Assembly: GCA_025055255.1 (NCBI GenBank)
Contig: JANWYI010000007.1
Coordinates: 2,945-57,466 of the forward strand
Length of the DNA: 54,522 nucleotides
Reading direction: 5' to 3'
DNA from: Anaerolineae bacterium
GTDB lineage: Bacteria; Chloroflexota; Anaerolineae; Aggregatilineales; UBA2796
The position numbers and the translations under genes were made by a program. Below are positions 20,674-43,432 of this stretch, piece by piece. The notes under the pieces were generated by a model, which had not been told where the DNA came from, did no database searches, and saw nothing but the letters and a program-made list of their open reading frames with translations. The stretch's first letter is position 1. Every line of letters begins with the position of its first letter.

Positions 20674-23085
20674 ATGAAGATTTTTATCAGCGCCACGCCC
20701 GATGACGCCTTTCGGCAAAGGCTGTGCCGCAACTTGGAAGGCGAAAAGCACCAGATCACTGAGTCGCTTCACAGCGCCGATTATGCCCTGTTGATTGACG
20801 GCTCAGCAGCTGGACAATCCAGCGCTGAATGTCTCCCGATCATCCACCTCTGGCGCCACGCCGACTCCGCGCCACACGCCGAAGCCCTCGATTTCCGCTC
20901 GGACTCCAGCTTTGATGAGCCGTTCATGGCGTTGCGCCGCCGCCTTGAAGTGCAGCCTGCGCCGCGCGCCGTCTTGTACAACTTGCCTGACCTGTTGCCC
21001 GTCTGCGTAGAGCGCCCTGAGCTAGATACGTTGTGCGAGCGCATCCTGAGGCGCGACGAGCGCATCAACGCCGTTGTCAGCAAGCCGCTGCCTAACGCGC
21101 TCTACGGCTTGGCAGGCATCGGCAAGAGCACGCTGACCAACATGCTCTGCCGCCGCTGTGACGTGCGCCGCCACTTCAGAGATGGCATTGTTTGGATCAA
21201 CTGCGGCACCAACGCCAACCCGCTCGGCTTGCTCCAGACGCTCGGCGCCGCCTTTGACGTGCCGCTCGCCGAGCTGGTCACGGAGCAGCCTGCCCAAGTC
21301 CGCCTACAGCGCGAGCTGCGCACCAGACGCTGTCTGATCGTGCTGGACGACGTCTGGGATCACGAGCTGGCAAAGTTGTTTCAGCAGCTGCTGGGCTCTG
21401 ACTCGCGCCTGCTGATCACCACGCGGCAGCTCGGCATTGCCCAGAGCCTGCACGCGCAGCCGCTCTTGATCGAGTCGCTCTCGTCTCAGCAAGGCGCTGA
21501 GCTGCTCCGCGGCTACATCGCCGACCTGAGCGAAGGAACTGCCAACGACATCGCAACGATCCTCAACGGACATCCGCTTGCGCTCTACATCGCCGCGATG
21601 TGGATTCTAGGACACGGCGTTTCAGAGGCGCCTGCTCTCTTGCGCCGCCTCAGAGAGCGCGAAACCTTCCGAAATTTGCGCCTTAAGGAGTCTGACCGCA
21701 ACCTCCACCTCGAATACTCGCTCAGACTGAGCTATGACGACCTGAAGCAGGGCGACAACGCCATCTTCCAGTTCTACTTCCGCCAGCTCGGCGTCTTGGC
21801 GCCAAACGAGCCGTTCTCGAAGGAAGCAGCAGGCGCGCTCTGGGAACTTGACGGCGACGCGCTCTCCGATGCGTTGCACGCGCTGTATCAAAAAGGCTTG
21901 CTCTTCAAGGCGGCGGGCAATGGCAACTCTGAGCCGCGCTACTACACGCACAGCCTGATCCATCTCTATGCGCGCAAATTGCTTGAGGCTGAGAACAGCG
22001 GTCAGGAATTCGGCTTAGCTGCCAAGCGCCACTTCACCTTCTTCTTCGAGGCGCGCCACCTGCAGCGCGCTGACCGCGCACGCCTGCTGACCGACTTGCC
22101 CAACATCCTCGTCGCCTTCGACTTCGCTGCAGACCATGACCCGCGCGCTGCTGTGGACTGGGCGATGAAGCTGAACAAGACTCTGGGCAAGACCGACCAG
22201 CGCGACCTGCACCGCACCTTGCTAGAGCGCGCTCTGGAAGCGGCGCAACGCACTGATCAAAGGGCAGGTGAGGCGTTCTTGCTCAGGGCGCTCTACAACC
22301 TGACCAAAGAACAGCGCCACGGCGAGGCGGCGCGGCGCGCCTTCCGCGAGGCAACTGCGGGCAGGGCGCATGTCATCACGCTGCAGATGGCTGCCCTCTT
22401 AGAGAAGGATTTCGGCAATTTTGAGGCGGCGCGGGGCTTGTTTGAGCGCGCCACGCAAGCCGAGCCGAACAATGCGCCGGCATGGCAGGCGTGGGCGCTG
22501 ATGGAAAAAGAGCTGGGGCGCTATGAGGCGGCGCGGGGCTTGTTTGAGCGCGCCACGCAAGCCGAGCCGAATGACCCTGTCTCATGGCAGGCGTGGGCGC
22601 TGATGGAAAAAGAGCTGGGGCGCTATGACGCGGCGCGGGGCTTGTTTGAGCGCGCCACGCAAGCCGAGCCGAACAATGCGCCGGCATGGCAGGCGTGGGC
22701 GCTGATGGAAAGCCAGCTCGGACGGCATGACGAGGCAGAGCGCCTGTTGCGCCAAGGCTTGGCGCACGTCCGCAGCGGCTATGGGTTGGGCTTGCTGCAT
22801 TCTAGCTTGGGCAGGCTGTTGGCAGATCGTGGAAGGCTTAAAGAAGCAGAGGCTCACTTCCGCAAGGCGCTGCAGCACCACGAGCGAGACGCTCTAACGC
22901 ACTACCACTTCGCCGTGCGCGTCCTGCTGCGCACAGGTCGGCGCGAGGAGGCATGTCAGCACTTGTGTCGTGCTAAGGCGCTAGGCGCAAAAAAGCAGCG
23001 CGACCGCGAGATGATTGAAAATGCCGTTCAGCGCAACGGCTGCCGATGCGGCGCGGAAGGCAACAGGCGCGCTCAGACGTCGTAG
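20674..23085 (+). CDS. NLR-like STAND ATPase: miniature TIR-like N-terminus, NB-ARC, TPR repeats
   Basis: An 803-residue soluble protein. Residues 1-92 resemble a shrunken TIR fold (KIFISATPDD...SADYALLI...CLPIIHLW...EALDF...FDEPFMALRRRLE) without the segment that carries the catalytic Glu. NB-ARC follows: P-loop GLAGIGKST (about 145-153), Walker B LIVLDDVWD (221-229), SRLLITTR (244-251), GHPLAL (299-304) and HSLIHLYARKLL in the winged-helix position. From about 560 to 790 come TPR-type repeats, three of them almost identical. Such proteins act as ligand-triggered oligomerising switches in signalling and antiphage defence; which applies here is unknown. The ribosome-binding site is weak (AGGTGA 12 nt upstream). 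The 3' end overlaps the convergent adenosine deaminase gene by 13 bp. Confidence 0.87.
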   Translation: MKIFISATPDDAFRQRLCRNLEGEKHQITESLHSADYALLIDGSAAGQSSAECLPIIHLWRHADSAPHAEALDFRSDSSFDEPFMALRRRLEVQPAPRAVLYNLPDLLPVCVERPELDTLCERILRRDERINAVVSKPLPNALYGLAGIGKSTLTNMLCRRCDVRRHFRDGIVWINCGTNANPLGLLQTLGAAFDVPLAELVTEQPAQVRLQRELRTRRCLIVLDDVWDHELAKLFQQLLGSDSRLLITTRQLGIAQSLHAQPLLIESLSSQQGAELLRGYIADLSEGTANDIATILNGHPLALYIAAMWILGHGVSEAPALLRRLRERETFRNLRLKESDRNLHLEYSLRLSYDDLKQGDNAIFQFYFRQLGVLAPNEPFSKEAAGALWELDGDALSDALHALYQKGLLFKAAGNGNSEPRYYTHSLIHLYARKLLEAENSGQEFGLAAKRHFTFFFEARHLQRADRARLLTDLPNILVAFDFAADHDPRAAVDWAMKLNKTLGKTDQRDLHRTLLERALEAAQRTDQRAGEAFLLRALYNLTKEQRHGEAARRAFREATAGRAHVITLQMAALLEKDFGNFEAARGLFERATQAEPNNAPAWQAWALMEKELGRYEAARGLFERATQAEPNDPVSWQAWALMEKELGRYDAARGLFERATQAEPNNAPAWQAWALMESQLGRHDEAERLLRQGLAHVRSGYGLGLLHSSLGRLLADRGRLKEAEAHFRKALQHHERDALTHYHFAVRVLLRTGRREEACQHLCRAKALGAKKQRDREMIENAVQRNGCRCGAEGNRRAQTS
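22423..22711 (+). repeat. Near-identical 102-bp tandem repeat (TPR units), about 2.8 copies
   Basis: The word GCGGCGCGGGGCTTG recurs at 22426, 22528 and 22630, exactly 102 nt apart, equal to one 34-residue TPR unit (GLFERATQAEPN...AWQAWALMEKELGRY). Copies 1 and 3 share even the variable centre (AACAATGCGCCGG), while copy 2 has AATGACCCTGTCT. Identity at silent positions points to recent duplication or gene conversion. Confidence 0.92.
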
Positions 23086-28093: not shown

Positions 28094-29209
28094 CTAGGCG
28101 CGCAGCGGCGACCACGTCCGCCGATTGCGCTGCGCGCGCTCCAGAACGCGCTCGATCTGTTCGTCGGTCACAGCTCGCTCAAAACTGCGGAAGCCTGAGA
28201 GTCGAAAGCCGTGTTTCGCTGCAATGGCTGCAATTTCGTTCGCTTGTGCCGCTGTAAGCGCCTTGCCAATGCTGTAATCTTCGTAGCGTCCTTCCATTGC
28301 CAGCGCCATGGTCTCTGCCATGCAGGCGAACGCTTTACCTTTGGGAAAGCCGAAGTCAAAGTGAAAATCTACGTCGCCTGGCACCTCGACCATGCCGCCT
28401 TCGATAACCAGCACATCATCGCGCTCTTGTGCTACGCGCACAGAGACGTCGCGCGGACGCGCCACATCGCAGACCACAGCGCCCGGCTTCAAATGCTGCG
28501 GAAAAATGACAGCGTCTATGGCGCTAGTGACCGTCAGGATCAGGTCAGCGTCATAGATTGCGCTCACGTCTGTGCTAACGCTCAATTGAGCGCCTCTGCC
28601 TTCGCAGCGCGTGCGCACTTCAGCCAGTGCTGACTCGCGCCTGCCAACTAGCACTAGCTCTGCCACGTCCGCTGCCAAAATTTCAGCGCAGACGCTGCCA
28701 ATAGCGCCTGTTGCGCCGACAACAGCTGCTTTGGCTGCGCTGAGCGCGATTTGCATCTGTGCCGCTGCTTGACGGACAGCCTCGACTGCAATTGCAATGG
28801 TGTAGCTATCACCTGTAGTGACAGGCACTTCGCAGCGCTCAGCAATCGTGCGTCCGGCATCACCTACCACGCTCGTGAAAGCGCCTAAGCCGACGATCTT
28901 GGCGCCTAGCCTTTCTGCCTTGCGCACAGACGCTGTGATCTTGTCGTAGACGTGCTGCACAGGCAGCTCTAACATGCGCTTCGGCGTAAACGGGCAAGCG
29001 ATGAACCAGCCTTTGATCTCGCGTCCTGTAGCCATGCTGCGCGCGCCTGTGATCTCTGAGATGTAGACAGGCGGGAAGTAGGCTGAGAGAAAATCTACCT
29101 GCTTTTCGGTCAACAGCTTGCCGAGCAGTGGAAATTTACGGCTAACATCGCGCTTAGGATGAATCGGATGGATGATGAAGCCAAAAGTGTCCGTCACACT
29201 TTGGGACAT
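28094..29209 (-). CDS. Long-chain acyl-ACP reductase (AAR)-like / shikimate-dehydrogenase-fold NAD(P)-dependent oxidoreductase
   Basis: The 371-residue product resembles cyanobacterial aldehyde-forming acyl-ACP reductase, which reduces fatty acyl-ACP to fatty aldehyde. Shared features: a FIIHPIHPKRD-type N-terminus, ITGARSMATGREIKGWFI, KIVGLGAFTSVVGDAG, TTGDSYTIAIAVEA, the nucleotide loop VGATGAIGS (164-172), VIEGGMVEVPGDVDF and FACMAETM, whose Cys296 aligns with the catalytic Cys of FACFAESM in the cyanobacterial enzyme. The N-terminus is about 20-30 residues longer. It starts 1 nt after the beta-helix gene stop, with GGAG 10 nt upstream. No aldehyde-deformylating oxygenase gene is adjacent, so alkane formation is not indicated; aldehydes or alcohols for wax or ether lipids are an inference. 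Confidence 0.82.
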   Translation of the reverse strand: MSQSVTDTFGFIIHPIHPKRDVSRKFPLLGKLLTEKQVDFLSAYFPPVYISEITGARSMATGREIKGWFIACPFTPKRMLELPVQHVYDKITASVRKAERLGAKIVGLGAFTSVVGDAGRTIAERCEVPVTTGDSYTIAIAVEAVRQAAAQMQIALSAAKAAVVGATGAIGSVCAEILAADVAELVLVGRRESALAEVRTRCEGRGAQLSVSTDVSAIYDADLILTVTSAIDAVIFPQHLKPGAVVCDVARPRDVSVRVAQERDDVLVIEGGMVEVPGDVDFHFDFGFPKGKAFACMAETMALAMEGRYEDYSIGKALTAAQANEIAAIAAKHGFRLSGFRSFERAVTDEQIERVLERAQRNRRTWSPLRA

Positions 29210-29210
29210 C

Positions 29211-30608
29211 TCATTCCCACTCCTCTAGGAAACTTGCCTCATCTTGACGCTCAACTGCGCGCGGGAACTTCTGGCGATGCAGCGCCGCGATCTCGCCGCG
29301 CAAGCCGTGATGGTCACTCTCCTCAAAGCTGATGTTTTTGCGCAAGATGCGCCGATCAGGCTTGGCAAACAGCACTGTGTCGGACTCGATCATGCGTGCT
29401 GGATAGACCACCATGCCAGAGCCAATCCGACAGTTGTTGCCTACGCAACTGCCCAGCACTTTCTGCCCAACTTTCTCGCGCTTGCCGTCAATTGCCTCCA
29501 CTTCTATCGCTTTAGGCAGTAGATTGAAGTCAGTGAAAGTGCTACCTGCGCCGATAAAGCTACCGCGTCCGACAACGCACATCTGCAGGCAAGTGTTCTG
29601 TGCCACGATGCAGTGCTCCATCAGCACGGTCAGATAGAGCGCAGCGCGAAATGGCAGGAAGCAGTTATCGCCCACGACGCTCAGCATGAGCTGAGCGCCT
29701 TGATCAATGTTGACGCGGTCACCGATGTAGCAGTTCTGAATGACCACGCCCGGTCCAATCGTGCAGTCGCTGCCGATCCACGCCGGACCGTGAATGACCG
29801 CTGAGGGATCAATGCGCGTGTTCTTGCCGACATGCACAAGCGCGGAGCATTCCAGCACGTGCTTTTGTTCAATCAAGGCGCGCAGCAGGACACTAAGCAA
29901 TGTGAAGTTGCTGTATTCTGGATTGCGCACTTTGCCCTTTATCGGAATGATCCGATTCTCAAAGCGCTTGCCCAGAGAGAAAATCCCTAGCGGCACATTG
30001 GCAAAGAAGACGTGAACCCAGTTTTCAATGCTGATAATGCTGCGCTGCGTGACATAATGCACTAGGTCGCCTCGATCAGACATATAGTCAGGCACTGAGT
30101 AAAAGCCGACCTCTTCCCAGCCCGTCTCGATGTAGAGCGGCGCAACTGTTACACTTGGATCGTAGCCGCGCGGATAGTACCACAGGTCAAATTCATAGTG
30201 GTCAATTTCCTCGCGTCCGCGCCCATCGCGGACTACGCGCCCATCAGCGCCGTGCTTGTAAACATGCTGTACGCGGCGCGCTAACGGCACAGCGTAAGTC
30301 ATGAGCGCTTTGTCCTCAGGCTTGAAAGCAGCGCGACATGGCACGCCGAGTTTGCGCGCTTGTGTGATAAATGCTCTAATGTACTCAGGATCGAAGTAGA
30401 GATTGTCGCGGTAAATAAGGGTCTCGTTAGCTGCAGGCAAGATATCACTGAGCGCTTGAACGGCAATTTCAGGCTCACAATAAGGCGCCAGAGCATCGCG
30501 CTGAGCAAGCCAGAGCGGTTTGTTCAGCACGTTCAGCTCACGGGCAGGTTGATTAAACGGCGCAATATGCCGTGTATCTTGAATAACGTAGTTCTTGAGT
30601 TTTTTCAT
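29211..30608 (-). CDS. Left-handed beta-helix (hexapeptide repeat) protein, acyltransferase-like
   Basis: The 465-residue product starts at ATG 30608 (AGGAG 5 nt upstream). Residues 1-260 are a conserved-looking domain with no motif I can name (PFNQPARELNVLNKPLWLAQRD, then FDLWYYPRGYDPS, NWVHVFFANVPLGIFSLG). From about 265 to 425 runs an isoleucine-rich hexapeptide-repeat left-handed beta-helix (IDPSAVIHGPAWIGSDCTIG...). Such helices occur in LpxA/LpxD/GlmU-type acyl- or acetyltransferases and in sugar-nucleotide enzymes. It is the first gene of a two-gene operon with the acyl-ACP-reductase-like gene, which suggests work on the same acyl-ACP pool. The proposed transferase activity is inference; no catalytic His is assigned. 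Confidence 0.75.
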   Translation of the reverse strand: MKKLKNYVIQDTRHIAPFNQPARELNVLNKPLWLAQRDALAPYCEPEIAVQALSDILPAANETLIYRDNLYFDPEYIRAFITQARKLGVPCRAAFKPEDKALMTYAVPLARRVQHVYKHGADGRVVRDGRGREEIDHYEFDLWYYPRGYDPSVTVAPLYIETGWEEVGFYSVPDYMSDRGDLVHYVTQRSIISIENWVHVFFANVPLGIFSLGKRFENRIIPIKGKVRNPEYSNFTLLSVLLRALIEQKHVLECSALVHVGKNTRIDPSAVIHGPAWIGSDCTIGPGVVIQNCYIGDRVNIDQGAQLMLSVVGDNCFLPFRAALYLTVLMEHCIVAQNTCLQMCVVGRGSFIGAGSTFTDFNLLPKAIEVEAIDGKREKVGQKVLGSCVGNNCRIGSGMVVYPARMIESDTVLFAKPDRRILRKNISFEESDHHGLRGEIAALHRQKFPRAVERQDEASFLEEWE

Positions 30609-30709: not shown

Positions 30710-30738
30710 TTGACAAGCGCTTGCTTTTTTGCTATCCA
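30710..30738 (+). promoter_or_regulatory. Predicted promoter of the PP2C-like gene
   Basis: TTGACA (30710-30715) and TATCCA (30733-30738) are spaced by 17 nt, about 36 nt before the ATG at 30775. Confidence 0.5.
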
Positions 30739-30774
30739 GTCGAGAGCGCATTCTTGCACAGGACTTTATGCGCG

Positions 30775-32895
30775 ATGCTGGAAACTATTGAGGCGTTAGT
30801 TGGCTACCTGTTTGTAGTCGGCGGACGCGCCATCAGCACGACGCCGCCTGGCGCACTCGTGGAGTTACCGCCGCGCAAAGTGCAGCGCAGCCGCGAAGCA
30901 GATACCTTTTTCACGCTCATCACACCACACGGCAAAACGCACGCCACTGCTAACGTCTATGAGGCGCTGACACACCTTGCTGCTGAGGTATATTTCCGCA
31001 GCAGTGGCAGCGTCACCAGTGGACTGCGCGAGGCGATCCACGCCGTCAATAGCCAGATTTCAGCGTCAGGTCAGCGCTATACATTGAACATGATTTGTGC
31101 TGTGCTGCGCGGCAATGAGGTCTACCTTGCACGCACTGCGGAGAGCGTCTGCATCCTGCGTCAAAACGGCGATTTTTCCTATCATCCTGACCAGCTGAGT
31201 GACTGCTTGCCACTTGGTGCCACACCTTCGCCTGAGATCAAGCTCGCGCGCTATGAGGTCTCGCCCGGCGACCTTATGGTGTTATGTGATAGCGCTCTTG
31301 CTCGCGCTGAGCGCGCTGCGCTCAATAACGCGCTTGCTCAGCCAAACCTGACTGCTATTCTAGAACCCTTGAAGGCGCTCGCTCACCGCGACACCCAAGC
31401 TCTTATCATTGAGTTTGCCACGCCTGAGACGCCCGATCCGACGCCTATTCCCAAGCCGCGCAAAAGCACGCCACTGCCTGAGTCCGCGCCAAGCTCAGCA
31501 CCTGTTTCTGCAGCACCTGAGCCAACTCCGACGCCTATCCCTGAGCCACCACAGCCACAACCATCACAGTCACCTGCTACGCCACTCGGTCAGCGTGCTG
31601 TGCTTGCTACAGGCAATGCACTGGATAGCCTTGCCAAAGGCTTGCGTCGCGCGCTCAGCCGCTTGTTACCAGAACCAAGCGAGGAGAGCGCGCCGCGCAT
31701 CCCAAGCATGTTAGCAGCGATTATGGCAATTTTAGTGCCAATTGTAGTCGTCTTCGTGATGGTAGCGCTGCAGCTTTCGCAATTTGACCTGACCCAGTTT
31801 GAACAGATGGTGCGCGAGGTAGAAGCCGCTGTCCGCCAAGCAGAGCTAGTTGATCTGCGTGACGAGCGCATAGCGCGCACGGTCTGGCTAGGCATCTTAG
31901 AGCGCGTGGCGTACGTCGAGATGACGAGCGGACGCATGAATGATCCGACGCTCAACCGTATCCGTGCCAAAGCGCAGAGCATCCTAGATCGCTTTGACAA
32001 AGTCACACGGCGAACGCTGACGCCGTTGCGCAATTTCGGCGAAGGCGCTCGGATTGTCAATCCAATTGTGCGCGGCGGCGCCGACATTTACACACTGGAG
32101 TTAAGCCGCAGCGCCATCTACCGAGACACTCTGGCACCTGAGGCAAACATCCTCATCACGCGCAACACACAACCTGTGGTGCAGCGCGGGCAAGCAGTCG
32201 GCGCATTTTCCGTGCGCGAGGTAGTGGATACGATCTGGTTAGCTGAAGGTGGTGTGCAGCGCGCTAATGTGCTCGCGGCACTCGATACACAGGGCATTTT
32301 GATCACCTACTCGCCGACCTTTGCGCCTGCCACAGCGCAACGGCTTGCTGGCGCTGACCTTTGGGGCAAGCCAATTGCGCTTGCCACATGGCGCGGCAAC
32401 CTGTACCTGCTCGATCCTGAGGCGAACCAAATTTGGCGTTACCGCCCGCTCGGTAACAGCTATCCCAATCCGCCTGAAGAGTACTTCGAAGGCGAAGTGC
32501 GCCCTGATCTTAGTCAGGCAGTGGACTTCGGCATTGATCCAAACGGCAATGTTTACATCTTTTTCGCTGATGGACAGCTGCGCAAGTTCACAAGCGGCAT
32601 TGAGCAGCGCTTTGCGCTGAGCGGAATGCCCTCTGATGGCTTGAAGAGCGGACGTGCCATGTATCTTGATGGTGACTCGCCGCTACCATCTATCTATTTG
32701 CTCGATCCTGCTGATCAATCTGTCTATCAGGTGACACTCTCAGGCGCCTTTCGCTATCGCTTCCGCGCCAACGATCCGAACCTGTTCCGCGCGCTCAGTG
32801 GCGTCTACGCCGACCGCGATAACATCTTTGTGGCGTCTGGCAATGTGCTGTATCACTTCTCTATTGCCGATCTAGCAGGTCGTCCGGCGCCCTAG
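30775..32895 (+). CDS. PP2C-like (degenerate) domain, TM segment and beta-propeller protein
   Basis: The 706-residue product starts at ATG 30775 (AGGA 11 nt upstream). Residues 1-220 look like a PP2C/SpoIIE-type phosphatase fold (TLNMICAVLRGNEVYLARTAESVCILRQNG, then SPGDLMVLCDSAL) but lack the DGxGG metal-binding aspartates, so activity is doubtful. A Pro/Ser/Thr-rich linker (about 220-285) leads to a short positively charged stretch and one transmembrane helix (MAILVPIVVVFVMVALQL, about 325). Beyond it lie a helical region and a domain of about 330 residues with propeller-like repeats (GNLYLLDPEANQIWRY, GIDPNGNVYIFFADGQLRKF, YLLDPADQSVYQV). Topology suggests a cytoplasmic pseudo-phosphatase and an extracellular sensor. 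It precedes two other signalling genes. The ligand is unknown. Confidence 0.75.
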   Translation: MLETIEALVGYLFVVGGRAISTTPPGALVELPPRKVQRSREADTFFTLITPHGKTHATANVYEALTHLAAEVYFRSSGSVTSGLREAIHAVNSQISASGQRYTLNMICAVLRGNEVYLARTAESVCILRQNGDFSYHPDQLSDCLPLGATPSPEIKLARYEVSPGDLMVLCDSALARAERAALNNALAQPNLTAILEPLKALAHRDTQALIIEFATPETPDPTPIPKPRKSTPLPESAPSSAPVSAAPEPTPTPIPEPPQPQPSQSPATPLGQRAVLATGNALDSLAKGLRRALSRLLPEPSEESAPRIPSMLAAIMAILVPIVVVFVMVALQLSQFDLTQFEQMVREVEAAVRQAELVDLRDERIARTVWLGILERVAYVEMTSGRMNDPTLNRIRAKAQSILDRFDKVTRRTLTPLRNFGEGARIVNPIVRGGADIYTLELSRSAIYRDTLAPEANILITRNTQPVVQRGQAVGAFSVREVVDTIWLAEGGVQRANVLAALDTQGILITYSPTFAPATAQRLAGADLWGKPIALATWRGNLYLLDPEANQIWRYRPLGNSYPNPPEEYFEGEVRPDLSQAVDFGIDPNGNVYIFFADGQLRKFTSGIEQRFALSGMPSDGLKSGRAMYLDGDSPLPSIYLLDPADQSVYQVTLSGAFRYRFRANDPNLFRALSGVYADRDNIFVASGNVLYHFSIADLAGRPAP

Positions 32896-33069: not shown

Positions 33070-33981
33070 GTGAGCAAAGGACGCATTCTGGTCGTTGAAG
33101 ACGACTTTGACATTTCAAACATGCTGCGCATTTATTTCACTGGGCAGGGCTACGAGGTACAAGTGGCGCCGCGTGGCGGCGATGCTCTCACGCTGACGCG
33201 CAAGCAACTACCGCAGCTGATCGTGCTGGACATCATGCTGCCAGATATGGACGGCTACGCTGTCTGCCGTGAGCTGCGCCAGACCACGCGCACGAGCCAT
33301 ATTCCAATTATTTTCCTAACGCAGCGCGATGAACGCTCGGATCGCATTGCTGGCTTGGAACTAGGCGCTGATGACTACATCACTAAGCCTTTTGACATTG
33401 AAGAGCTGAAACTGCGCGTGAAAAATGCCATTGAGCGCGTTGACCGCGAGAAGAGCATGGATCCGCGCTCTAACTTGCCTTCGGCGCGCCTGATTGAAGA
33501 GCAGCTGCGCGAACTCATGCGCACAACCGATACATGGTACTACTTGGACATCAAAATTAACCACTTCGATGCCTTCCAAGAGGTTTACGGCGTTCTAGCA
33601 AGCACGGAAGTGCTGCGTTTCGTAGCGCTGCTGTTGGGCGAAGTCACTGATGAACTTGGCACGCCTGATGATTTCATCGGTCATGCTGGAAATGACAATT
33701 TTGTGATCATCACCTATAGCAGTCGTGCGGCTGCGCTCAGAGAGCGCCTGATCGAGCGCTTTAACGATGAGGTCAAGCAGCATTATACCTTCATTGACCG
33801 TGAGCGTGGACATATTGTGATTGAAAGTGGCGAGACCAAGCCGCTGATGACTTTGAGCATCGGCATGGTCTCTAACGCAACTCAGCGCTTCGCTGATATC
33901 CGTGAAATTACCGAGTTGGCAGCTGAAGCACGCCGTCGTCCCGCAAGCGACTCGGTTGAGCCGATTGAAACGTCTTGGTAA
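33070..33981 (+). CDS. Response regulator with degenerate GGDEF domain
   Basis: The 303-residue product starts at GTG 33070. The receiver domain (1-120) is intact: VVEDD, Asp54 in VLDIMLPDMDGYAV, FLTQRD and ADDYITKPFD. The second half has GGDEF topology (DPRSNLPSARLIEEQLRELM is like the usual D-x-LT-x-LPNR start, and SIGMV is like the late strand). The active-site loop, however, reads GHAGNDNFVIIT where diguanylate cyclases have G-x-x-GGDEF, so c-di-GMP synthesis is very unlikely. The domain may bind GTP or act by protein contact. The gene lies 43 nt before the giant multi-GAF kinase, which could phosphorylate it. Confidence 0.88.
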   Translation: MSKGRILVVEDDFDISNMLRIYFTGQGYEVQVAPRGGDALTLTRKQLPQLIVLDIMLPDMDGYAVCRELRQTTRTSHIPIIFLTQRDERSDRIAGLELGADDYITKPFDIEELKLRVKNAIERVDREKSMDPRSNLPSARLIEEQLRELMRTTDTWYYLDIKINHFDAFQEVYGVLASTEVLRFVALLLGEVTDELGTPDDFIGHAGNDNFVIITYSSRAAALRERLIERFNDEVKQHYTFIDRERGHIVIESGETKPLMTLSIGMVSNATQRFADIREITELAAEARRRPASDSVEPIETSW

Positions 33982-34024: not shown

Positions 34025-37000
34025 ATGGACGGGCTAGTGCTGTTGTTATTTGCGCTTGGCTTCAGCATGTTTGGCGTGGTCTTCATGTTTGCACGCTTGC
34101 GTCTTGAACGTCAAGCTGAGATGGAGACCTTGCCTGAAACAGTCGTGCAGGTCAATTTGCTAGATAACGACGATGCGGTTCTGGTGGCAGAAGGGCGTGG
34201 TAAACTCGTCTACGCTAATGCACGCGCGCAGGCATGGTTTGGCTTAAGCGGCGGCGAGCCAGACCTTGAGATTCTGGTCGAAAGTGTGCAGCCGTCTGAA
34301 ACCTTCCTAGAGCTGTTCAGCAAGGAAGGTTCAGCGTCTTTCCGCATTGGCGCGCGCCGCGTAGAGGCTTCATCGCACTATGTGCCGCACAACGGCGTGC
34401 CACAGATGGTGGTGGTGATGCGCGAACTCACCTCGCCAAACGCTGAGCGCGAAATCCTTGACCCAGCTCATGCTTTGATCCTTGTGGGCGATGTGGTGCA
34501 GCTTCTCAGCAGCAAATTGCCGCTCCAAGAGGCGCTTGATGAGGTACTGCGCCTGATTCACGATGTGATTCCGTTCGACGTAGGTGAGGTGAACTTTTGG
34601 GATGCGGCGCTGCAAACCTTGACGCCACAAGGTAAGTACGGCGACCGTGCCTACTTCGACGCGCTAGACGCAGCCGACGGACACTATACACTGACCGATA
34701 GCTGCAGCGGCTGGCTAGCGCGCTACCGCCAGCCGCTCTTAGTGCCAGACATGCGTCTGCGTTTGGATGTGCGCCCCAAGATTGCCAGCTACGGTCTCCA
34801 GTCGCTAGTCGGCGCGCCGTTGCTGGTTGGCGAGCGCTTGCTCGGCACAATTGAGCTTGCTAGTCGCAGCCGCATCGCTTTTGACCATGAAGATATGGCG
34901 CTTCTGCAGACTCTGGCAGGGCAGATCGCTCTGGCAATTGAAAATGTCCGCCTGCAGCAGACTCAGTCGGAGCGCGCTGCAGAGCTAAACGGCTTGCAGC
35001 AGATCGCCAGTGTGATGACGTCAATGCGCGATCCGCGCCAGATGTATACACAGCTGACAAGCCGCATTGCGCTGCTCGCTGATGTCGAAATGTGCGGCAT
35101 CTTGCTAGAGTCGCCAGAGCAACAGGCATTGGTCGGACAGCCGCCTTTTTACGGCGTGCCAGAGTCCATTGCAAATATGTATCGCATTTCACTCGCCGAA
35201 GGTAGCATCGGCGCTGTGCTGTATCAGACGCGCGACTGGTGGTATTCCAACGCTGTGCTGAGTGACGAGATTGTGCGCGAGGCAGGCTTAACAAGCCTAG
35301 CTGAGGCAGTCGGTGTGCGCACAACAGCGCTGGTACAAATGCGCGTCGGCACTCGGCGCTTTGGTGTGATTCAAGTTGCTAATAAACGCGACGGAAAAGG
35401 CTTCACAGACAACGATATGCGCTTGCTGAGCGTTTTTGCCTCGCAAGCCGCAATTGTTGTGGAAAATGCGCGGCTCTACGATGAAGAGCGTCGCCGTGCT
35501 GAAGAGCTAAGCGGCTTACAGCAGATCAGTCGCGTGATTGGCATGTTGCGCTCTGCCGATGAAATGTACAGTTATCTCAACGAGCAGATCGCCAAGCTGA
35601 TGAACTGCCAGATATGCGGCGTCTTGCTGTATGAGCCGAGTCTCGGTCAGCTAGTCAGCCGTCCGCCATTCTACGGCGTGGATGACGATCTCGTTCGTCA
35701 CTATCGGATCGCTATCACGCCTGGTACTACTTTCTACCGCATTTACAACGAGAGTGAGTACTGGATCAGCAACGAGCTGCGCACTGATCCAACGCTGCGC
35801 GACAGCGGCTTGGACAAGCTAGCAATGCTAATCGGCGTGCGCCAAACGCTTATGGTGCCGCTTATCATCAACGGTAGACGCATTGGCGTAGTGCAAGTTG
35901 CCAATCGTTTAGACGGCACAGAGTTCACAGAAGAGCAAGCACGTGTACTTTCGATCATTGCATCGCAAGCTGCTGTGATTATTGACAATGCGCGGCTCTA
36001 CCGCGAGATGCGCGAACGCACTGATGAGTCCGAAGGCTTGCGCCGCATCGCAGAGCTGACCGCTAGCAACCTGCGCCTTGAAGAGATCATCAGTGCTACA
36101 GTGCGCGAGACAGCTGCTATCTTCGGCTGCGAAATTTGCGCTGTTGGCATGCTTGATGACCAGACTGGCGCCATAGTCATTCCGCCTGAATACACAGTCG
36201 GCTTAGTTGGCTTGCAAGAGTCTATCATCATTGACACATACCGTCCTGGTTATCAAAATAGCGTAGCACTCTCGCAACGACCGTTTCTCAGCAATACTCT
36301 GCGCACTGATCCGCGCCTGTTACCTGCCTACCGTGAAATTGCTGATCGCTTCGGCTTCAACGCTGCTGTACAAGTACCTATTGCGGTGCAGGAGCGCAGC
36401 TTCGGCGAATTGACCATTGCCAGCCGTAGCCTCAGAGAATTCACTGAAGACGATCTGCGCTTGCTTCAAGCGATTGGTGTGCAATTAGCCGCAGCTGTAG
36501 ACCGTCAGAAGCTCTATCAGGCGACCGATGCTGACTTGCGTCAGCGCATTCGTGAAATGGACGCGCTAACGCGCATCAGCAATGAGCAGAACAGCACCAC
36601 TGAATTTGAGCGCATCATCACAGTTATCCGTAATGAAGTACAGCGCACGCTAGGCGTCTCTTTCACCAGCATTGTCCTCTTCCAGTCTGCCAGTCAGTTA
36701 GGCACGCCGAATGCGCTTGAAGTGCGCAAGCGCTACGGACATGAAAAAGCTCTGGCAGGTCTGGCACCGATAGAGCGCCTTGCCTTTGAGCGAGGCGAGG
36801 CAATCTTTGTGGCAGATTACAGCGCTGTTAGCTTTGCTGCTGTGCCTGAGACAATGCGCAGCGCAATTGCCGCGCCAATCAGCTATGGTGGCGAGATCGT
36901 AGGCATCTTGCACGTTGCTACTCCTGAACCAGAGCGCTTGAGCGCTCAAGCCTTGGACTTTGTCAGGGCGATCACTAACCAAGTTGCCATCAGCTTGGGC

Positions 37001-40000
37001 AATGAAGAGCGATACCGTGATCAACTAGACCGTGCAGAGCTGCTCAAGCAGCGTACTGATCAGCTCAATCAGCTCTTCGAGATCGGGCGCATGGTCAATA
37101 GCGGCGCGGCAATTGAAGACGTGCTAGAGGCAGTGGCGCACGCAATCAGCGACGCTATTGGCTTTGACGTGGTTATCATCAGCGTCGTAGATAGGCGCAC
37201 ACAAAGTACGCGGCGCATTGCACAGTCAGGCTTGCCGCTGCAACAGTGGGAAGAAGCGCGGCGCGGTAGCGTGCCACTCAGCCGTCTTGAGCAGCTCTTC
37301 AAGCCTGAGTTTCAGCTCAGCAACTCATTTTTCATCCCTGCTGAGCATCCTGCACGTCGAGCGCTTGATCTTTCCTTCGCTCACGTTTCACCGAATGCTA
37401 GTCCACGCGTCGGCACGCAGGCTTGGCAGCCTGAGGACTTGCTACTCGTGCCGCTGCGCAGCTCTGGTGGCACGCTGATCGGCGTAATCAGCGTGGATGA
37501 GCCGCGCAACGGCTTGCGCCCAAATTTGCGCACTATCGAGGCACTAGAAACTTTCGCTTATCAGGCTGCTTTTGCGATTGAGAACTATAACTTGCTGCGC
37601 GCCTACGAAGCAGAAGCCGAAGCTACACGCCGCGAGCGCGACCGCCTAGAGCAGCTCTACCTCGCCACGAACGAAGTACAGCGCGCGCCTGACGTGCCGA
37701 CGCGTCTCTCCGTCATCGCTGAAAGCATCCGCGCGCTTGGCTGGGGTAGAGTCGCGGTCACCTTGCGTGACGAGAACCTTGAGCCGCTGGAAACAGCCTT
37801 AGCTGGCTTCACGCCTGAGGATGCACAACGTTTCCGCCGTAACTTGTTGCCGGGCGCTGTCTGGGCGCAGCGCTTAGCTGACCCGGAGCTGCGTAACTAT
37901 CGTGTCGGTGGCGCCTACTACCTGCGCTACAGCGATCCGTGGGTGACTGAGAACAAGCTCATGGCAGGCGTTGTCAGCAGCGGCGATGAAGCAGGCACAC
38001 CTACTGAGCTCAGCACTTTGCGCCTGCCTACGCTAACGCCGCGCCCAAGTGAACAGTGGCATCCGCTTGACACGCTCTACTTGCCGCTCTATGGCTTGGA
38101 TCGCTCGCGCTTGATCGGCATCATCACGCTCGACTCGCCTGTTGACGGTTTAGCACCAACAGAAAGCGCACTGCGCCCAATTGAGCTGTTCTCGGCACAA
38201 GCTGCGGCAGCGCTTGAGAACGCACGGCTCTATCAAGATATTCGCCGCGCTGCTCTACAAGAGACACGCGTTAATGAACTGATGGAGACTGTCACTAGCA
38301 CGCTTGATCTTGATGAGATCATCGTAGGCGTAGCAAGCGGCTTCCAGCAAATGATTGCTTTCACGCGCATGAACATTGCGCTCCTGAATGAAGATAACAC
38401 TGTGTTCGAAGTGCGCCGCGTCACGGTTACGCCGCGTGGCGAAGTGCGTGTCAACCCTGCACCAAGCCTGCCTGTTGAGAATACTGCGCTCGGCTTTGCA
38501 GTCAGTGAGCCAGTGCCAAAGCTGTACGACCTAACCGATCCTGAACAGGTGGCAGGGCTGGACGATCTGCGTGCGTGGCGCGATCTGGGTGAGCGCACAG
38601 CGCTTGTTGTGCCAATGATCGCTGGTGGACGCACGATTGGCGCTATTCACATGGGTAGCGAGCTGAGAGAGGCATTCGGCTTCCGCGAACAGCTCGATTT
38701 TGTCTCGCGTATCGCTAACCTGACCGCAGTTGCACTGGAGAACGCACAACTGTTGCGCCAGACCATTGAGCGTGAGCGCTTCTCGGTCGCGCTGAGCCGT
38801 GTTGGGCAATCTGTGAGTGCCATGCTCAGCATGCAGCAGATTCTCGACACCATTTGCACTGAGGCGCTCGACATCATGAGCGTAGACGGCGTCTACATCT
38901 GGCTTGTCGAAGGCGAGCAGCAAGTTGGCACTGTCGGACGTGGTCCAAACGCGGATCGTTTCAGCGGCACGCGTTTGTCACTCAGCGACTCCGAGCTGCC
39001 TAGCACACGCGCCATTCAGACGCGGCAACCTGTTGTCCTGAGCGCTCACAGTCCACTCGATCCGCCACTCTACTTAGCTGAAGCACTAGCCGAAGTCCCA
39101 ATCAGCGCTTTACTGTGCGTGCCGCTGCTGCGCGAACAACAAGCAATTGGCGCACTAGCCTTCATCAGAACTGAAGGACTGCGTCCGTTCACTGGCAACG
39201 ACGTCGAGAAGGCGAATGCCTTTGCCATTCAAGCCTCAGTTGTTATCCAAAACGCTCAGCTTTACCAAGAGACGCTCGGCTTGACGTCGTTTAATCAGGC
39301 GGTCATCCAGTCCATTCAGCAAGGCATTATCGTGGTGGATCAGGCGCTGACTATCCGCACAGTAAATGCCTTCATGCAGCGCACCTTTGGCTGGGACGCG
39401 CAAGCTGCAGTTGGACAAGCGCTGTTCGTCTATCGTCCTGCTCTAGAGCCAATCCTAGCTGCGTCTCTAGCTGAAGTGCTGCAAACAGGTGAGCCGCAAA
39501 GCGTCCCAAATGTGCGCCTCGCTGATACGCCGCGCATCGGCAACTACTACTTGTATCCGCTACAAGAGGGTAGCTCTATTAGCGGCAGCGTCATCCTAGT
39601 GGAAGACGTGACTGAACGCACGGCATTAGAGGAAGACGTAGCGCGTCGTGCGGCTCAGTTGGCAACGCTGACCGACATCTCTGGGCAATTGACCACTGTG
39701 TTGGAGACAGAAGCGCTCACACGGCTAGTCCTTGAGCAGTTGACGCGCATTCTTGAGTTTGACCGTGCTACGCTCTGGCTGCGGCAAGCCAATAAGCTGG
39801 TCATTCAAGCAGCGCGCGGCTTTGGCGATGATGATGCGCTGATCGGAATAGAGGCAGACATCGCCGACTCTGACCTGTTCCGCGAAATTGCCTCGCGTGG
39901 ACAGGTGCTGAACATTCCTGACATCCGTGAAGACGCACGCTTCCCAATGAGTCTTGAGCAGCCAACGCGCTCTTGGCTTGGCGTCTCGTTAGTCTCACGC

Positions 40001-43000
40001 GGCAGCTTGATTGGCTTGTTAGTGCTGGAAAAGTACGATGTCGCCTTCTATACGCCGACTATGGAACAGCTTGCGCTCACTTATGCAAACCAAGTGGCAG
40101 CTGCTTTTGAAAATGCTCAACTCTTCCAAAGTCAGCGCCGTGTCGCTGCGGAGACCGAGTCGCTTTACCGCGAGGCTGCTGCGCGTGCTTATGAACTGGA
40201 GCAGCAAACCAAACGTCTTGCATTGCTATACCGCGTCTCCAACGCATTGACGCAGACACTTGACCTAGAGGACATCTTCGAGGTTGCGCTGCGCGAGACG
40301 CAGGAAATGCTCGGCGCGGATCACAGCATAGCGTACCTCTTCGATCTTGACGAGCAAGTTGCCAAGCCGATCATCGAGTATCCGCGCAATCAGCAGCCAC
40401 CTGACTTAGGCGGCATGTTGCCGTTCGAGCAGAATCCGCTCGTGGCAGACGTACGCCGCACATTACTGCCATGCGCTATTAACAACGCACTGCACGACGC
40501 GCACGTACCAGTTGTGCCACCTAGTCTTGCAGGTCAAACCATCTTTTCGCAAATGCTTGTGCCACTAGCGCTTGGCGGTCAGTGTATCGGCATGATGGTC
40601 TTCAGCGCTGTCAGCCAACTTATCACTTTCCGCCCAGAACAGGTGGAAGTAGCGCAGACCATTGCTTCACAAGCAGCTATTGCCATTCAAAACGCTAACT
40701 TACTCGAACAATCCTTCGCGCGTACGCGAGAGCTGGAGACGCTTTTTGAGGCGACGCAATCCATCTCGTCTACGCTTGACTTTGAGCAAGTGCTGCGCAA
40801 CATCGCCATGCAGATGATCGTGGCAGTCCAAGCCGATGGCTGCAAGATCAGCACATGGAATCCAGTGAGTCGCTATTTGAAGGTTGAACATGAGCAACTT
40901 GCTGTGCCAAACGCGGCTACAGACGCGCCTGACACGCATTACGACCTAGCCGAGTATCCAACGCTGGAGCGCGCGTTGAAAGCGCGTCAAACGATCTTGC
41001 TACGCGCCACAGATGCTCATCTCTCTGCGGCTGAACATGCAATGCTGGCAAAGCGCAAGGCAGCCTACCTGATCGCTTTGCCAATGGTCGTCCGTGAGCA
41101 GGCAATTGGATTGATCTTGCTTGAAATTCACAATCCTGCGCGCACGTTCAGCAGTCCTGAGGTGCGCCTAGCGCGCACGTTAGCTGCTCAGGCAGCGGTC
41201 GCCATTGAAAACGCTAGTCTGCAGACCGAAACAGCGGCTAAGTTGCAAGAGCTGTTCAACCTCAGCCAGCTTTCAACAGCATTAGCGGCTACGATTGAAG
41301 AGGAAGAAGTCTACGAGATCGTCCGCCAGCGTTTCCCTGACTTGGTTGAAGCAGAAGTCTTCCTCGTAGCAGTGGTGAGCCCTGATCGTCAGCAGATCAC
41401 CTACCCTGTAGCCTTGCGGAACGGCGAGTCGTTATATCTATCACCACAAACATTCACTAACGATGAAGTCGCTTTTGTCATGTCTAGCCGCAGCACACAG
41501 CACTTGGTCGGTGACGAAGTGGCAAGCGTGCTGAGCGCCTTCGCTAGTTCGCTCGGTTTTGCACAGGCGCGCGCTTTTATTGGTGTGCCGCTGATTGCCT
41601 CTGATCAGCTGTTAGGCGCACTAATCGTTGCCGACTCGCAAGAAGCACACGCTTTCAGTCTGGACGATCAGCGCATTCTGGAAACAGTCGGCTCACAACT
41701 GGCAACAGCCTTGCAGAACGCGCGGCTCTTTGCTCAGGCGCGGCGCTTTGCTGCTGAGCTGGAGCGCGCCGTGCAAGAGCGCACGCGCGAGCTGCAGCGT
41801 GAGCGTGACGCGCTCAACTTCCTCTACAGTCTGACAGCTGAATTGACTTCCAGCTTAAATATTGACGTGACGTTGAACCGCGCGCTTGTCAAGTTGATTG
41901 GCGCTGTGGACGCTGACATGGGCGCCATCTTGAGCATTGATAGTCTCTCGGATACACTGACAGTGCGCGCTCAGGTGAATATGCCTCACCGTGAAGGCGA
42001 GCCGACTGGTTATACGCGCTATGAAGGCTTGGCAGGCTGGGTCATTCAGGCGCAACAGCCTGTAGTTGTGGCAGATGTGCAGCAAGACCACCGTTGGCTG
42101 CACTTGAGCGAGGCGGATAACGAGCCGCGTGCTGCTATCGTCGCGCTCTTGGAGGCAGGCGAAGAAATACAAGGCGTGGTCATGCTTTTCAGCCGCACGC
42201 CGAACCATTTCTCAACTGATCAATTGCCCTCAGTAGTCGCCGCTGCTACACAGATTGCTAACGCGCTCAACAACGCCGATCTCTACGCGCTCATCCGCGA
42301 GCAAGCAGATCGTCTTGGCGCAATGGTGCGCCGCGAACAGGTGGATAGCACCAAGAATCTGGCTATTGTAGAGTCGATTGCCGACGGCGTGATGGTGGCA
42401 AACCAAGACGGCGACATCACACAGTTTAACAGCGCAGCCGAACGTATTCTAGGCTTGCCGCGTCAACAAGTCATCGGTAACCACATCAGCGCACTCTCAG
42501 GCTTGTACACGGCAGTCGGCGGTCAAAACTGGCTTGAGGCGGTCCAGAGATGGACAGAAGACCCTGCCTCACATCAGCCGGGTGACGAGTTGCGCGCTGA
42601 GATCACGCTGGAAAGTGGCAAAGTCATCAGTGTGATTCTCTCACCTGTCCGCATGGGCGACCAGTTCCTCGGCACAGTCTCGGTCTTCCGCGATATTACG
42701 CGTGAGATTGAGGTAGACCGTATGAAGACTGAGTTCGTGGCAACTGTCAGCCATGAACTGCGCACGCCGATGACTTCTATCAAGGGTTATGCCGATCTAC
42801 TGTTGCTTGGCGCTGCTGGTCCGCTCAACGAGGCGCAGGCACGCTATCTCAGCACAATCAAGACCAACGCTGACAAGCTCTCGATCCTTGTCAACGAACT
42901 CTTGGATATCTCACGCATTGACCGCGGCGTAGTCAAGCTGAACTTGCAGGCGGTTAACTTTGAAGAAGTGTTGCAGATGACCAAGCGTCATTTGGCAGAT

Positions 43001-43432
43001 CGCATCCGTAATGAGCGCAAGGAGATGATCATCGAGACGGACGTGCCGCCTGACTTGCCGCTCTTGCGCGCCGACTTTGACAAGTTAGCGCAAATCATGA
43101 CGCACCTTGCCAACAATGCCTTCAACTACACGCGCGCCAACGGCAAAATCACGATTCGGGCACGTGCTGAAGGCAGCTCCGTTGTCATCAGCGTGCAGGA
43201 CACTGGTGTCGGTATCCCGCCTGAGAAACAGGCTAGTGTCTGGAATCGCTTCTACCGCGACGAAGACGAACGTCTGGTGATTGAGACCTCAGGTGCAGGC
43301 TTAGGCTTGCCAATCGTCAAGGAGTACGTGCGCTTGCACGAAGGCGAGGTTTGGCTGGAGAGCGAAGTCGGTGTAGGTTCAACGTTTTACGTGCGCATTC
43401 CTGCCTTCAGCGTTGAGGAAGAAAGCGAGTAG
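34025..43432 (+). CDS. Giant hybrid sensor histidine kinase: TM-PAS-(GAF)9-PAS-(GAF)5-PAS-HisKA-HATPase, 3135 residues
   Basis: After a single N-terminal membrane anchor (LVLLLFALGFSMFGVVFMFA) and a PAS-like domain, I count fourteen GAF units. Each ends in a helix such as IALAIENVRLQQ, AIVVENARLYDEE or AAAFENAQLFQSQ and is joined to the next by a coiled linker (L-x-x-L-x-x-IS). A PAS domain (GIIVVDQALTIRTVNAFMQR) separates GAF9 and GAF10; a third PAS (GVMVANQDGDITQFNSAAER) precedes HisKA (VATVSHELRTPMTSIKGY, His2910). HATPase_c has HLANNAFNYT, VQDTGVGIPPE and GAGLGLPIVKEY. GAGGA lies 9 nt before the ATG. Ligands are unknown; no bilin-type Cys motif was recognised. It probably signals to the receiver encoded just upstream. 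The gene ends at a shared terminator facing rpoB. Confidence 0.95.
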   Translation: MDGLVLLLFALGFSMFGVVFMFARLRLERQAEMETLPETVVQVNLLDNDDAVLVAEGRGKLVYANARAQAWFGLSGGEPDLEILVESVQPSETFLELFSKEGSASFRIGARRVEASSHYVPHNGVPQMVVVMRELTSPNAEREILDPAHALILVGDVVQLLSSKLPLQEALDEVLRLIHDVIPFDVGEVNFWDAALQTLTPQGKYGDRAYFDALDAADGHYTLTDSCSGWLARYRQPLLVPDMRLRLDVRPKIASYGLQSLVGAPLLVGERLLGTIELASRSRIAFDHEDMALLQTLAGQIALAIENVRLQQTQSERAAELNGLQQIASVMTSMRDPRQMYTQLTSRIALLADVEMCGILLESPEQQALVGQPPFYGVPESIANMYRISLAEGSIGAVLYQTRDWWYSNAVLSDEIVREAGLTSLAEAVGVRTTALVQMRVGTRRFGVIQVANKRDGKGFTDNDMRLLSVFASQAAIVVENARLYDEERRRAEELSGLQQISRVIGMLRSADEMYSYLNEQIAKLMNCQICGVLLYEPSLGQLVSRPPFYGVDDDLVRHYRIAITPGTTFYRIYNESEYWISNELRTDPTLRDSGLDKLAMLIGVRQTLMVPLIINGRRIGVVQVANRLDGTEFTEEQARVLSIIASQAAVIIDNARLYREMRERTDESEGLRRIAELTASNLRLEEIISATVRETAAIFGCEICAVGMLDDQTGAIVIPPEYTVGLVGLQESIIIDTYRPGYQNSVALSQRPFLSNTLRTDPRLLPAYREIADRFGFNAAVQVPIAVQERSFGELTIASRSLREFTEDDLRLLQAIGVQLAAAVDRQKLYQATDADLRQRIREMDALTRISNEQNSTTEFERIITVIRNEVQRTLGVSFTSIVLFQSASQLGTPNALEVRKRYGHEKALAGLAPIERLAFERGEAIFVADYSAVSFAAVPETMRSAIAAPISYGGEIVGILHVATPEPERLSAQALDFVRAITNQVAISLGNEERYRDQLDRAELLKQRTDQLNQLFEIGRMVNSGAAIEDVLEAVAHAISDAIGFDVVIISVVDRRTQSTRRIAQSGLPLQQWEEARRGSVPLSRLEQLFKPEFQLSNSFFIPAEHPARRALDLSFAHVSPNASPRVGTQAWQPEDLLLVPLRSSGGTLIGVISVDEPRNGLRPNLRTIEALETFAYQAAFAIENYNLLRAYEAEAEATRRERDRLEQLYLATNEVQRAPDVPTRLSVIAESIRALGWGRVAVTLRDENLEPLETALAGFTPEDAQRFRRNLLPGAVWAQRLADPELRNYRVGGAYYLRYSDPWVTENKLMAGVVSSGDEAGTPTELSTLRLPTLTPRPSEQWHPLDTLYLPLYGLDRSRLIGIITLDSPVDGLAPTESALRPIELFSAQAAAALENARLYQDIRRAALQETRVNELMETVTSTLDLDEIIVGVASGFQQMIAFTRMNIALLNEDNTVFEVRRVTVTPRGEVRVNPAPSLPVENTALGFAVSEPVPKLYDLTDPEQVAGLDDLRAWRDLGERTALVVPMIAGGRTIGAIHMGSELREAFGFREQLDFVSRIANLTAVALENAQLLRQTIERERFSVALSRVGQSVSAMLSMQQILDTICTEALDIMSVDGVYIWLVEGEQQVGTVGRGPNADRFSGTRLSLSDSELPSTRAIQTRQPVVLSAHSPLDPPLYLAEALAEVPISALLCVPLLREQQAIGALAFIRTEGLRPFTGNDVEKANAFAIQASVVIQNAQLYQETLGLTSFNQAVIQSIQQGIIVVDQALTIRTVNAFMQRTFGWDAQAAVGQALFVYRPALEPILAASLAEVLQTGEPQSVPNVRLADTPRIGNYYLYPLQEGSSISGSVILVEDVTERTALEEDVARRAAQLATLTDISGQLTTVLETEALTRLVLEQLTRILEFDRATLWLRQANKLVIQAARGFGDDDALIGIEADIADSDLFREIASRGQVLNIPDIREDARFPMSLEQPTRSWLGVSLVSRGSLIGLLVLEKYDVAFYTPTMEQLALTYANQVAAAFENAQLFQSQRRVAAETESLYREAAARAYELEQQTKRLALLYRVSNALTQTLDLEDIFEVALRETQEMLGADHSIAYLFDLDEQVAKPIIEYPRNQQPPDLGGMLPFEQNPLVADVRRTLLPCAINNALHDAHVPVVPPSLAGQTIFSQMLVPLALGGQCIGMMVFSAVSQLITFRPEQVEVAQTIASQAAIAIQNANLLEQSFARTRELETLFEATQSISSTLDFEQVLRNIAMQMIVAVQADGCKISTWNPVSRYLKVEHEQLAVPNAATDAPDTHYDLAEYPTLERALKARQTILLRATDAHLSAAEHAMLAKRKAAYLIALPMVVREQAIGLILLEIHNPARTFSSPEVRLARTLAAQAAVAIENASLQTETAAKLQELFNLSQLSTALAATIEEEEVYEIVRQRFPDLVEAEVFLVAVVSPDRQQITYPVALRNGESLYLSPQTFTNDEVAFVMSSRSTQHLVGDEVASVLSAFASSLGFAQARAFIGVPLIASDQLLGALIVADSQEAHAFSLDDQRILETVGSQLATALQNARLFAQARRFAAELERAVQERTRELQRERDALNFLYSLTAELTSSLNIDVTLNRALVKLIGAVDADMGAILSIDSLSDTLTVRAQVNMPHREGEPTGYTRYEGLAGWVIQAQQPVVVADVQQDHRWLHLSEADNEPRAAIVALLEAGEEIQGVVMLFSRTPNHFSTDQLPSVVAAATQIANALNNADLYALIREQADRLGAMVRREQVDSTKNLAIVESIADGVMVANQDGDITQFNSAAERILGLPRQQVIGNHISALSGLYTAVGGQNWLEAVQRWTEDPASHQPGDELRAEITLESGKVISVILSPVRMGDQFLGTVSVFRDITREIEVDRMKTEFVATVSHELRTPMTSIKGYADLLLLGAAGPLNEAQARYLSTIKTNADKLSILVNELLDISRIDRGVVKLNLQAVNFEEVLQMTKRHLADRIRNERKEMIIETDVPPDLPLLRADFDKLAQIMTHLANNAFNYTRANGKITIRARAEGSSVVISVQDTGVGIPPEKQASVWNRFYRDEDERLVIETSGAGLGLPIVKEYVRLHEGEVWLESEVGVGSTFYVRIPAFSVEEESE

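Follow-up and report, generated by a model that had tools for sequence, protein, structure and literature searches.

In the cyanobacterial acyl-ACP reductase (AAR), residue C294 forms an acyl-enzyme from which NADPH then releases the aldehyde, and mutation of Y247 weakens acyl-CoA binding (PMC7089970). AAR-like domains are already known outside cyanobacteria, namely in PigE and its homologue TamH (PMC8341465, PMC9594044), and a thioester reduction has been shown with PigE, its N-terminal domain being the proposed site (PMC8341465). Here, we analyze a reductase of this kind (RED) and the left-handed beta-helix (LbH) protein encoded beside it, in a window (i.e., the whole stretch of DNA that was analyzed) of 54,522 nucleotides from a Chloroflexota draft genome (3.6 Mb, 92% complete), whose nearest loci are from Anaerolineae and Chloroflexi MAGs. 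A sequence-only reading of the window had described RED as an AAR-like enzyme outside cyanobacteria, which is right as to the kind of enzyme but, given PigE and TamH, not new in itself. What that reading missed, and what is the more notable fact, is that LbH and RED are in most cases part of a signalling operon. In such a conserved setting, a reductase of the AAR/PigE type would subject the formation of fatty aldehyde to sensory control, in a group (Chloroflexota) that is abundant and difficult to culture.

The reductase and its relation to AAR and PigE

The gene pair comprises the following features:

28094..29209, minus strand: RED, AAR/PigE-N-type acyl-thioester reductase by homology, 371 aa (ORF; NCBIfam PigE 3e-65, TIGR04058 6.6e-38; AF2 pLDDT 90.4; Foldseek 6jzy, TM 0.82 of target)
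28694..28720, minus strand: dinucleotide loop VGATGAIGS, RED residues 164-172 (aligns with AAR 162-GATGDIG-168)
28322..28324, minus strand: codon of the predicted catalytic Cys296 in RED (aligned with AAR C294 and PigE C296; Cys in 62/62 rows)
29211..30608, minus strand: LbH partner of RED, 465 aa counted from the ATG (ORF; Pfam; orthologues in 70/400 Chloroflexota genomes)
29871..30608, minus strand: LbH protein, N-terminal domain, residues ~1-246 (unmatched in Pfam; fold weakly nucleotidyltransferase-like; contains the invariant His199)
29373..29846, minus strand: left-handed beta-helix domain of the same protein, residues ~255-412 (Pfam repeats; no conserved His)

LbH lies upstream of RED, and their junction reads TGA-g-ATG, with 1 nt between the LbH stop and the RED start. 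Judging from this spacing and the conserved gene order, the two genes are probably co-transcribed. Both proteins are conserved at 87-94% in near relatives and at about 45-75% across Anaerolineae.

RED carries both motifs named in the sequence-only reading, VGATGAIGS at residues 164-172 and FAC-x-AE-x-M with its Cys at 296. The proposed match of this residue to the catalytic Cys of AAR also stands, as Cys296 (in the motif FACMAE) aligns with AAR Cys294 and PigE Cys296; Cys296 and Glu299 are both invariant in all 62 aligned rows. The AF2 model of RED, built from 17 sequences (mean pLDDT 90.4), had its best fold matches in the AAR structures 6jzy and 6jzu (Foldseek, TM 0.82 by target length), and the PDB matches of RED were 4ppm (PigE) and 6jzq, 6jzu and 6jzz (AAR). 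RED therefore resembles AAR (TIGR04058; PDB 6JZQ/6JZU/6JZY/6JZZ) in its whole three-domain fold, the GxTGxIG loop, the catalytic Cys, the Glu that follows it and the R189 position (R190 in RED), at 31% identity over 315 aligned residues. Unlike AAR, it has LbH and not the aldehyde-deformylating oxygenase (ADO) as its partner gene, Ala194 in place of R193 and Arg251 in place of Y247 (Arg in 57/62 rows), and it scores far under the equivalog cut-off (130.9 vs 449.7 bits for TIGR04058); the position of R314, which like R189 and R193 binds the cofactor phosphate in AAR, is K316. Because the Y247 and R193 positions have changed, the substrate or cofactor preference of RED may differ from that of AAR. 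A recent transfer of RED from cyanobacteria is not supported at 31% identity.

The best profile match was to PigE (NF053554, 3e-65); it covers RED residues 9-361 and spans only residues 2-359 of the 837 of PigE, and RED again falls below the equivalog cut-off (221 vs 850 bits). The likeness to the N-terminal thioester reductase domain of PigE (PDB 4PPM) includes the catalytic Cys296 and 31% identity over 329 residues, whereas RED is a stand-alone protein without the PLP aminotransferase domain and its gene context differs. Taken together, homology places RED in the AAR/PigE-N superfamily as a reductase of acyl thioesters that depends on NAD(P)H, and it probably forms fatty aldehyde from bound fatty acids.

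The LbH partner protein

Known LbH acyl- and acetyltransferases of the LpxA, LpxD and GlmU type use a catalytic His within the LbH domain. In the 465-residue partner, Pfam detected hexapeptide/LbH repeats only, at about residues 255-412 (Hexapep 4.5e-16, LbH_EIF2B 2.8e-16), which agrees with the left-handed beta-helix proposed from the sequence; no Pfam family matched its first ~245 residues. Across 52 orthologues, the LbH domain has no invariant His, the nearest (column 391) being Asn in the window, and the sole invariant His of the protein is H199 in the N-domain. A canonical LbH acyltransferase mechanism is thus not supported. Moreover, none of the LbH transferase models reached its cut-off. 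On these two grounds we rejected an LpxA/LpxD/GlmU-type transferase. The earlier proposal of an acyl-ACP-using transferase is not supported; LbH staying with sensor genes where RED is elsewhere or absent (see below) also speaks against it.

The AF2 model of the LbH protein, built from 28 sequences, reached a mean pLDDT of 69, with residues ~1-170 mostly at 80-95 and much of the LbH half poor. All 33 Foldseek matches at E up to 0.001 were sugar-phosphate or related nucleotidyltransferases or eIF2B, with scores (E 6e-6 to 1e-3, TM 0.16-0.42) that are weak evidence given the low-pLDDT model. Some of these matches (RmlA, KdsB) have no LbH, so the fold likeness points to the N-domain. Structure prediction of this domain, which the sequence-only reading had recommended, therefore yielded weak nucleotidyltransferase-like fold matches but no sequence-profile support: neither six nucleotidyltransferases from the window genome nor Chloroflexota proteins of GlmU type (TIGR03991) supported it in hhalign comparisons, and the GGxGTRL signature is missing from the orthologue alignment. 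A true nucleotidyltransferase is not supported, as only the fold hints at one. The LbH protein resembles the LbH-bearing sugar-1-phosphate nucleotidyltransferases (GlmU, GMPP, ST0452) and eIF2B in overall layout and in LbH similarity, and departs from them in its low TM scores, the lack of GGxGTRL and the unsupportive profile comparison of its N-domain. Most likely, it serves as a scaffold or as a ligand-binding regulator and not as a canonical acyltransferase.

Co-occurrence and the signalling operon

Among 400 Chloroflexota genomes, RED was present in 69 and LbH in 70; both occurred in 64, RED only in 5 and LbH only in 6, an outcome that bears out the co-occurrence suggested earlier as a check. 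The corresponding Fisher value (1e-60) takes no account of shared ancestry and is not to be taken literally; the real evidence for the association is the pattern across many families. In 39 of 43 Chloroflexota loci from a different collection, LbH was located upstream of RED at a distance of at most 2.8 kb, while the remaining four include two loci cut by contig ends (L062, L042), one with LbH 3 kb away (L039) and one with LbH elsewhere in the genome (L040). Within Anaerolineae, the two genes are adjacent almost everywhere. LbH was missing from all nine tested non-Chloroflexota genomes with RED and is, as far as the genomes tested here go, so far Chloroflexota-specific.

Clustering of neighboring genes recovered an order that recurs among the loci: DUF4388, small GTPase, alpha/beta-hydrolase, V4R, LbH, RED, response regulator and giant GAF kinase. 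The response regulator was found in at least 34 of the 43 loci and the kinase in at least 35, with GTPase, hydrolase and DUF4388 in at least 17-19 and V4R in at least 11; these counts are lower bounds, as many loci end early. The order of the sensor genes is conserved in most sampled Anaerolineae. The literature that we found neither describes this operon nor holds anything on AAR with Chloroflexus, and the operon is apparently undescribed. Its last two members are also encoded in the window:

33070..33981, plus strand: response regulator with GGDEF-type domain (orthologue 3' of RED in 34 related loci)
34025..43432, plus strand: giant GAF-rich histidine kinase, 3135 aa (orthologue comes after the response regulator in relatives)

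The kinase, which combines numerous GAF domains with a histidine kinase at its C-terminus, is the largest ORF of the window; its orthologues, which accompany the response regulator in relatives, have 2000-2900 aa. In the window, the LbH-RED pair is separated by 2.5 kb, including a 724-aa gene, from the response regulator and kinase on the opposite strand, and the GTPase and hydrolase of the window genome sit together on a separate contig (C77). The intervening gene (30721-32895, plus strand) is divergent from LbH and its product has no Pfam match at E 0.01; by eye only, its N-terminus looks like a PP2C-like phosphatase, and a gene of similar size adjoins LbH in near relatives (L034, L077).

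LbH keeps the company of V4R, response regulator and kinase genes where RED is elsewhere or absent (L095, L097, L100, L102-L104). Specifically, the Chloroflexia loci L097, L100 and L104 have V4R-LbH-response regulator-kinase without RED, L095 lacks V4R as well, and L102 holds the complete operon minus RED only. Since LbH stays with the sensor genes where RED is missing, it belongs first to the sensor system. Gene order alone hints at a tie of RED and LbH to signalling. As a separate observation, a membrane protein gene is found directly upstream of LbH in L061, L063 and L066-L069, replacing the hydrolase and V4R genes; the protein has no Pfam match and resembles dolichol/phytol kinases by eye.

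Other contexts of RED and the fate of its predicted aldehyde

Outside Anaerolineae, RED pairs with a ~310-aa protein without Pfam or NCBIfam match, for which we use the working name QDH; in Chloroflexia the two are fused, and a frequent order in other phyla is CoaX-Dus-QDH-RED-LysS. The reductases of QDH-RED pairs and fusions (Bacillota, Armatimonadota, Chloroflexia) are homologous to LbH-linked RED, with the same Cys and about 40-56% identity, and differ from it in their partner and in forming a separate supported clade (97/93). Most LbH-linked reductases group at 98/94, a set that also includes the long-branch AAR and L112 rows, the placement of which is unsure. The phylogeny proposed in the sequence-only reading therefore sets QDH-linked apart from LbH-linked reductases but leaves the cyanobacterial row unsure; as a single AAR row risks a long-branch artefact, its position was not used. 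Two RED subfamilies split by partner (LbH or QDH) make both partner proteins clear targets. Fusions were observed in L031, L096, L098, L099, L101, L106 and L107 (Chloroflexia and one Anaerolineae family), with two fusion copies in Roseiflexus-type genomes.

Several RED relatives adjoin lipid genes. In L029 and L113 their neighbors are a likely patatin and two acyltransferases of PlsC type, in L112 (5580-8401) a fatty acyl-AMP ligase gene sits immediately before the gene of an AAR-like reductase, a distant paralogue with 34% identity to a RED reference, and in L096 an alpha/beta-hydrolase gene overlaps the QDH-RED fusion gene. These contexts support lipid substrates of RED. The arrangement of ligase and reductase in L112 resembles a split carboxylic-acid reductase.

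The sequence-only reading had remarked that ADO is not adjacent, and the absence extends further: ADO (PF11266) was found in none of 41 genomes, i.e., the window genome (a 92% complete draft) and 40 relatives, with Synechococcus elongatus positive as control. On this search, alkane synthesis with ADO was rejected. WS/DGAT (PF03007) was present in 4/20 relatives and was not found in the window draft genome or its four same-genus relatives; a wax ester route by WS/DGAT is not supported in the window organism, and the lipid-ester idea of the earlier reading is left without support. Strong matches to the fatty-acyl-reductase profile PF07993 were absent (best 9e-18 in the window genome and 5e-14 in G118); as this profile also matches ordinary SDR proteins in 14/14 controls, only the lack of strong matches is informative.

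Chloroflexus and Roseiflexus produce wax esters (PMC4400912). In a putatively Chloroflexus-type genome, we found a QDH-RED fusion with an overlapping alpha/beta-hydrolase gene, no WS/DGAT and no strong match to the fatty-acyl-reductase domain family, and a putatively Roseiflexus-type genome has two WS/DGAT. RED, as the QDH-RED fusion, is a candidate aldehyde source for wax esters in Chloroflexia, and the aldehyde-forming step in the members of this class that make them thereby has a candidate that can be tested.

Possible roles of the LbH-RED pair

We consider it rather probable that RED reduces acyl thioesters to fatty aldehyde and was drawn into a signalling operon with LbH as scaffold or ligand-binding regulator. 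By homology, Cys296 would accept the acyl group from acyl-ACP or acyl-CoA, and hydride from an NAD(P)H cofactor would free the fatty aldehyde. In Anaerolineae, RED would have joined a signalling operon that Chloroflexota already had (DUF4388, small GTPase, alpha/beta-hydrolase, V4R, LbH, response regulator, giant GAF kinase), of which LbH would be a Chloroflexota-specific member, and the sensor system would control the making, or the use, of the RED aldehyde. From homology, the cysteine, the fold, gene order and co-occurrence, we infer the aldehyde product, the substrate, the regulatory link and the role of LbH; the kinase pair of the window, on the other strand behind the 724-aa gene, counts against this explanation, as do the changes at AAR Y247 and R193 and the TIGR04058 and PigE scores far under their equivalog cut-offs. 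Overall, there are hints that the LbH-RED pair forms a regulated lipid pathway. A bolder version, in which the operon would itself both produce and detect a ligand derived from fatty aldehyde (with RED and the hydrolase making or clearing a lipid signal, V4R and GAF domains binding it, LbH scaffolding, kinase and regulator responding), is speculative and fairly unlikely; if true, it would be a lipid-signalling system absent from the literature found.

An aldehyde or alcohol made by RED could instead serve membrane or storage lipids, the sensor-gene neighborhood being historical and not functional. Such a role would fit the other contexts of RED (PlsC, fatty acyl-AMP ligase, alpha/beta-hydrolase, CoaX-Dus-QDH-RED-LysS) and the wax esters of Chloroflexus and Roseiflexus (PMC4400912), as genomes of that class have QDH-RED fusions. 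Sensor-gene order is nevertheless kept in most sampled Anaerolineae, and the window genome and four other tested Anaerolineae genomes have no WS/DGAT, so we regard this alternative as possible but doubtful. An acyltransferase role, in which LbH would esterify an alcohol from the RED aldehyde to give wax-type esters or ether-lipid precursors, draws on the fold shared by LpxA, LpxD and GlmU, the 1 nt between the genes and the PlsC genes by RED relatives (L029/L113). It is an improbable role, given that the only invariant His (H199) falls in the N-domain and not in the LbH domain, that no LbH transferase model reached its cut-off, that LbH persists without RED (L102, L103) and that RED outside the phylum occurs without LbH. 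Least credible is the reduction of a non-fatty thioester for a small-molecule product, as in PigE: the profile is nearer PigE (3e-65) than AAR (6.6e-38) and Arg replaces AAR Y247, but lipid genes adjoin relatives of RED, and neither an aminotransferase nor a biosynthetic cluster was found next to the listed RED genes.

Elsewhere in the window (20674-23085, plus strand), we noticed an 803-aa NB-ARC and TPR protein of STAND-type architecture, the TPR units of which are nearly identical.
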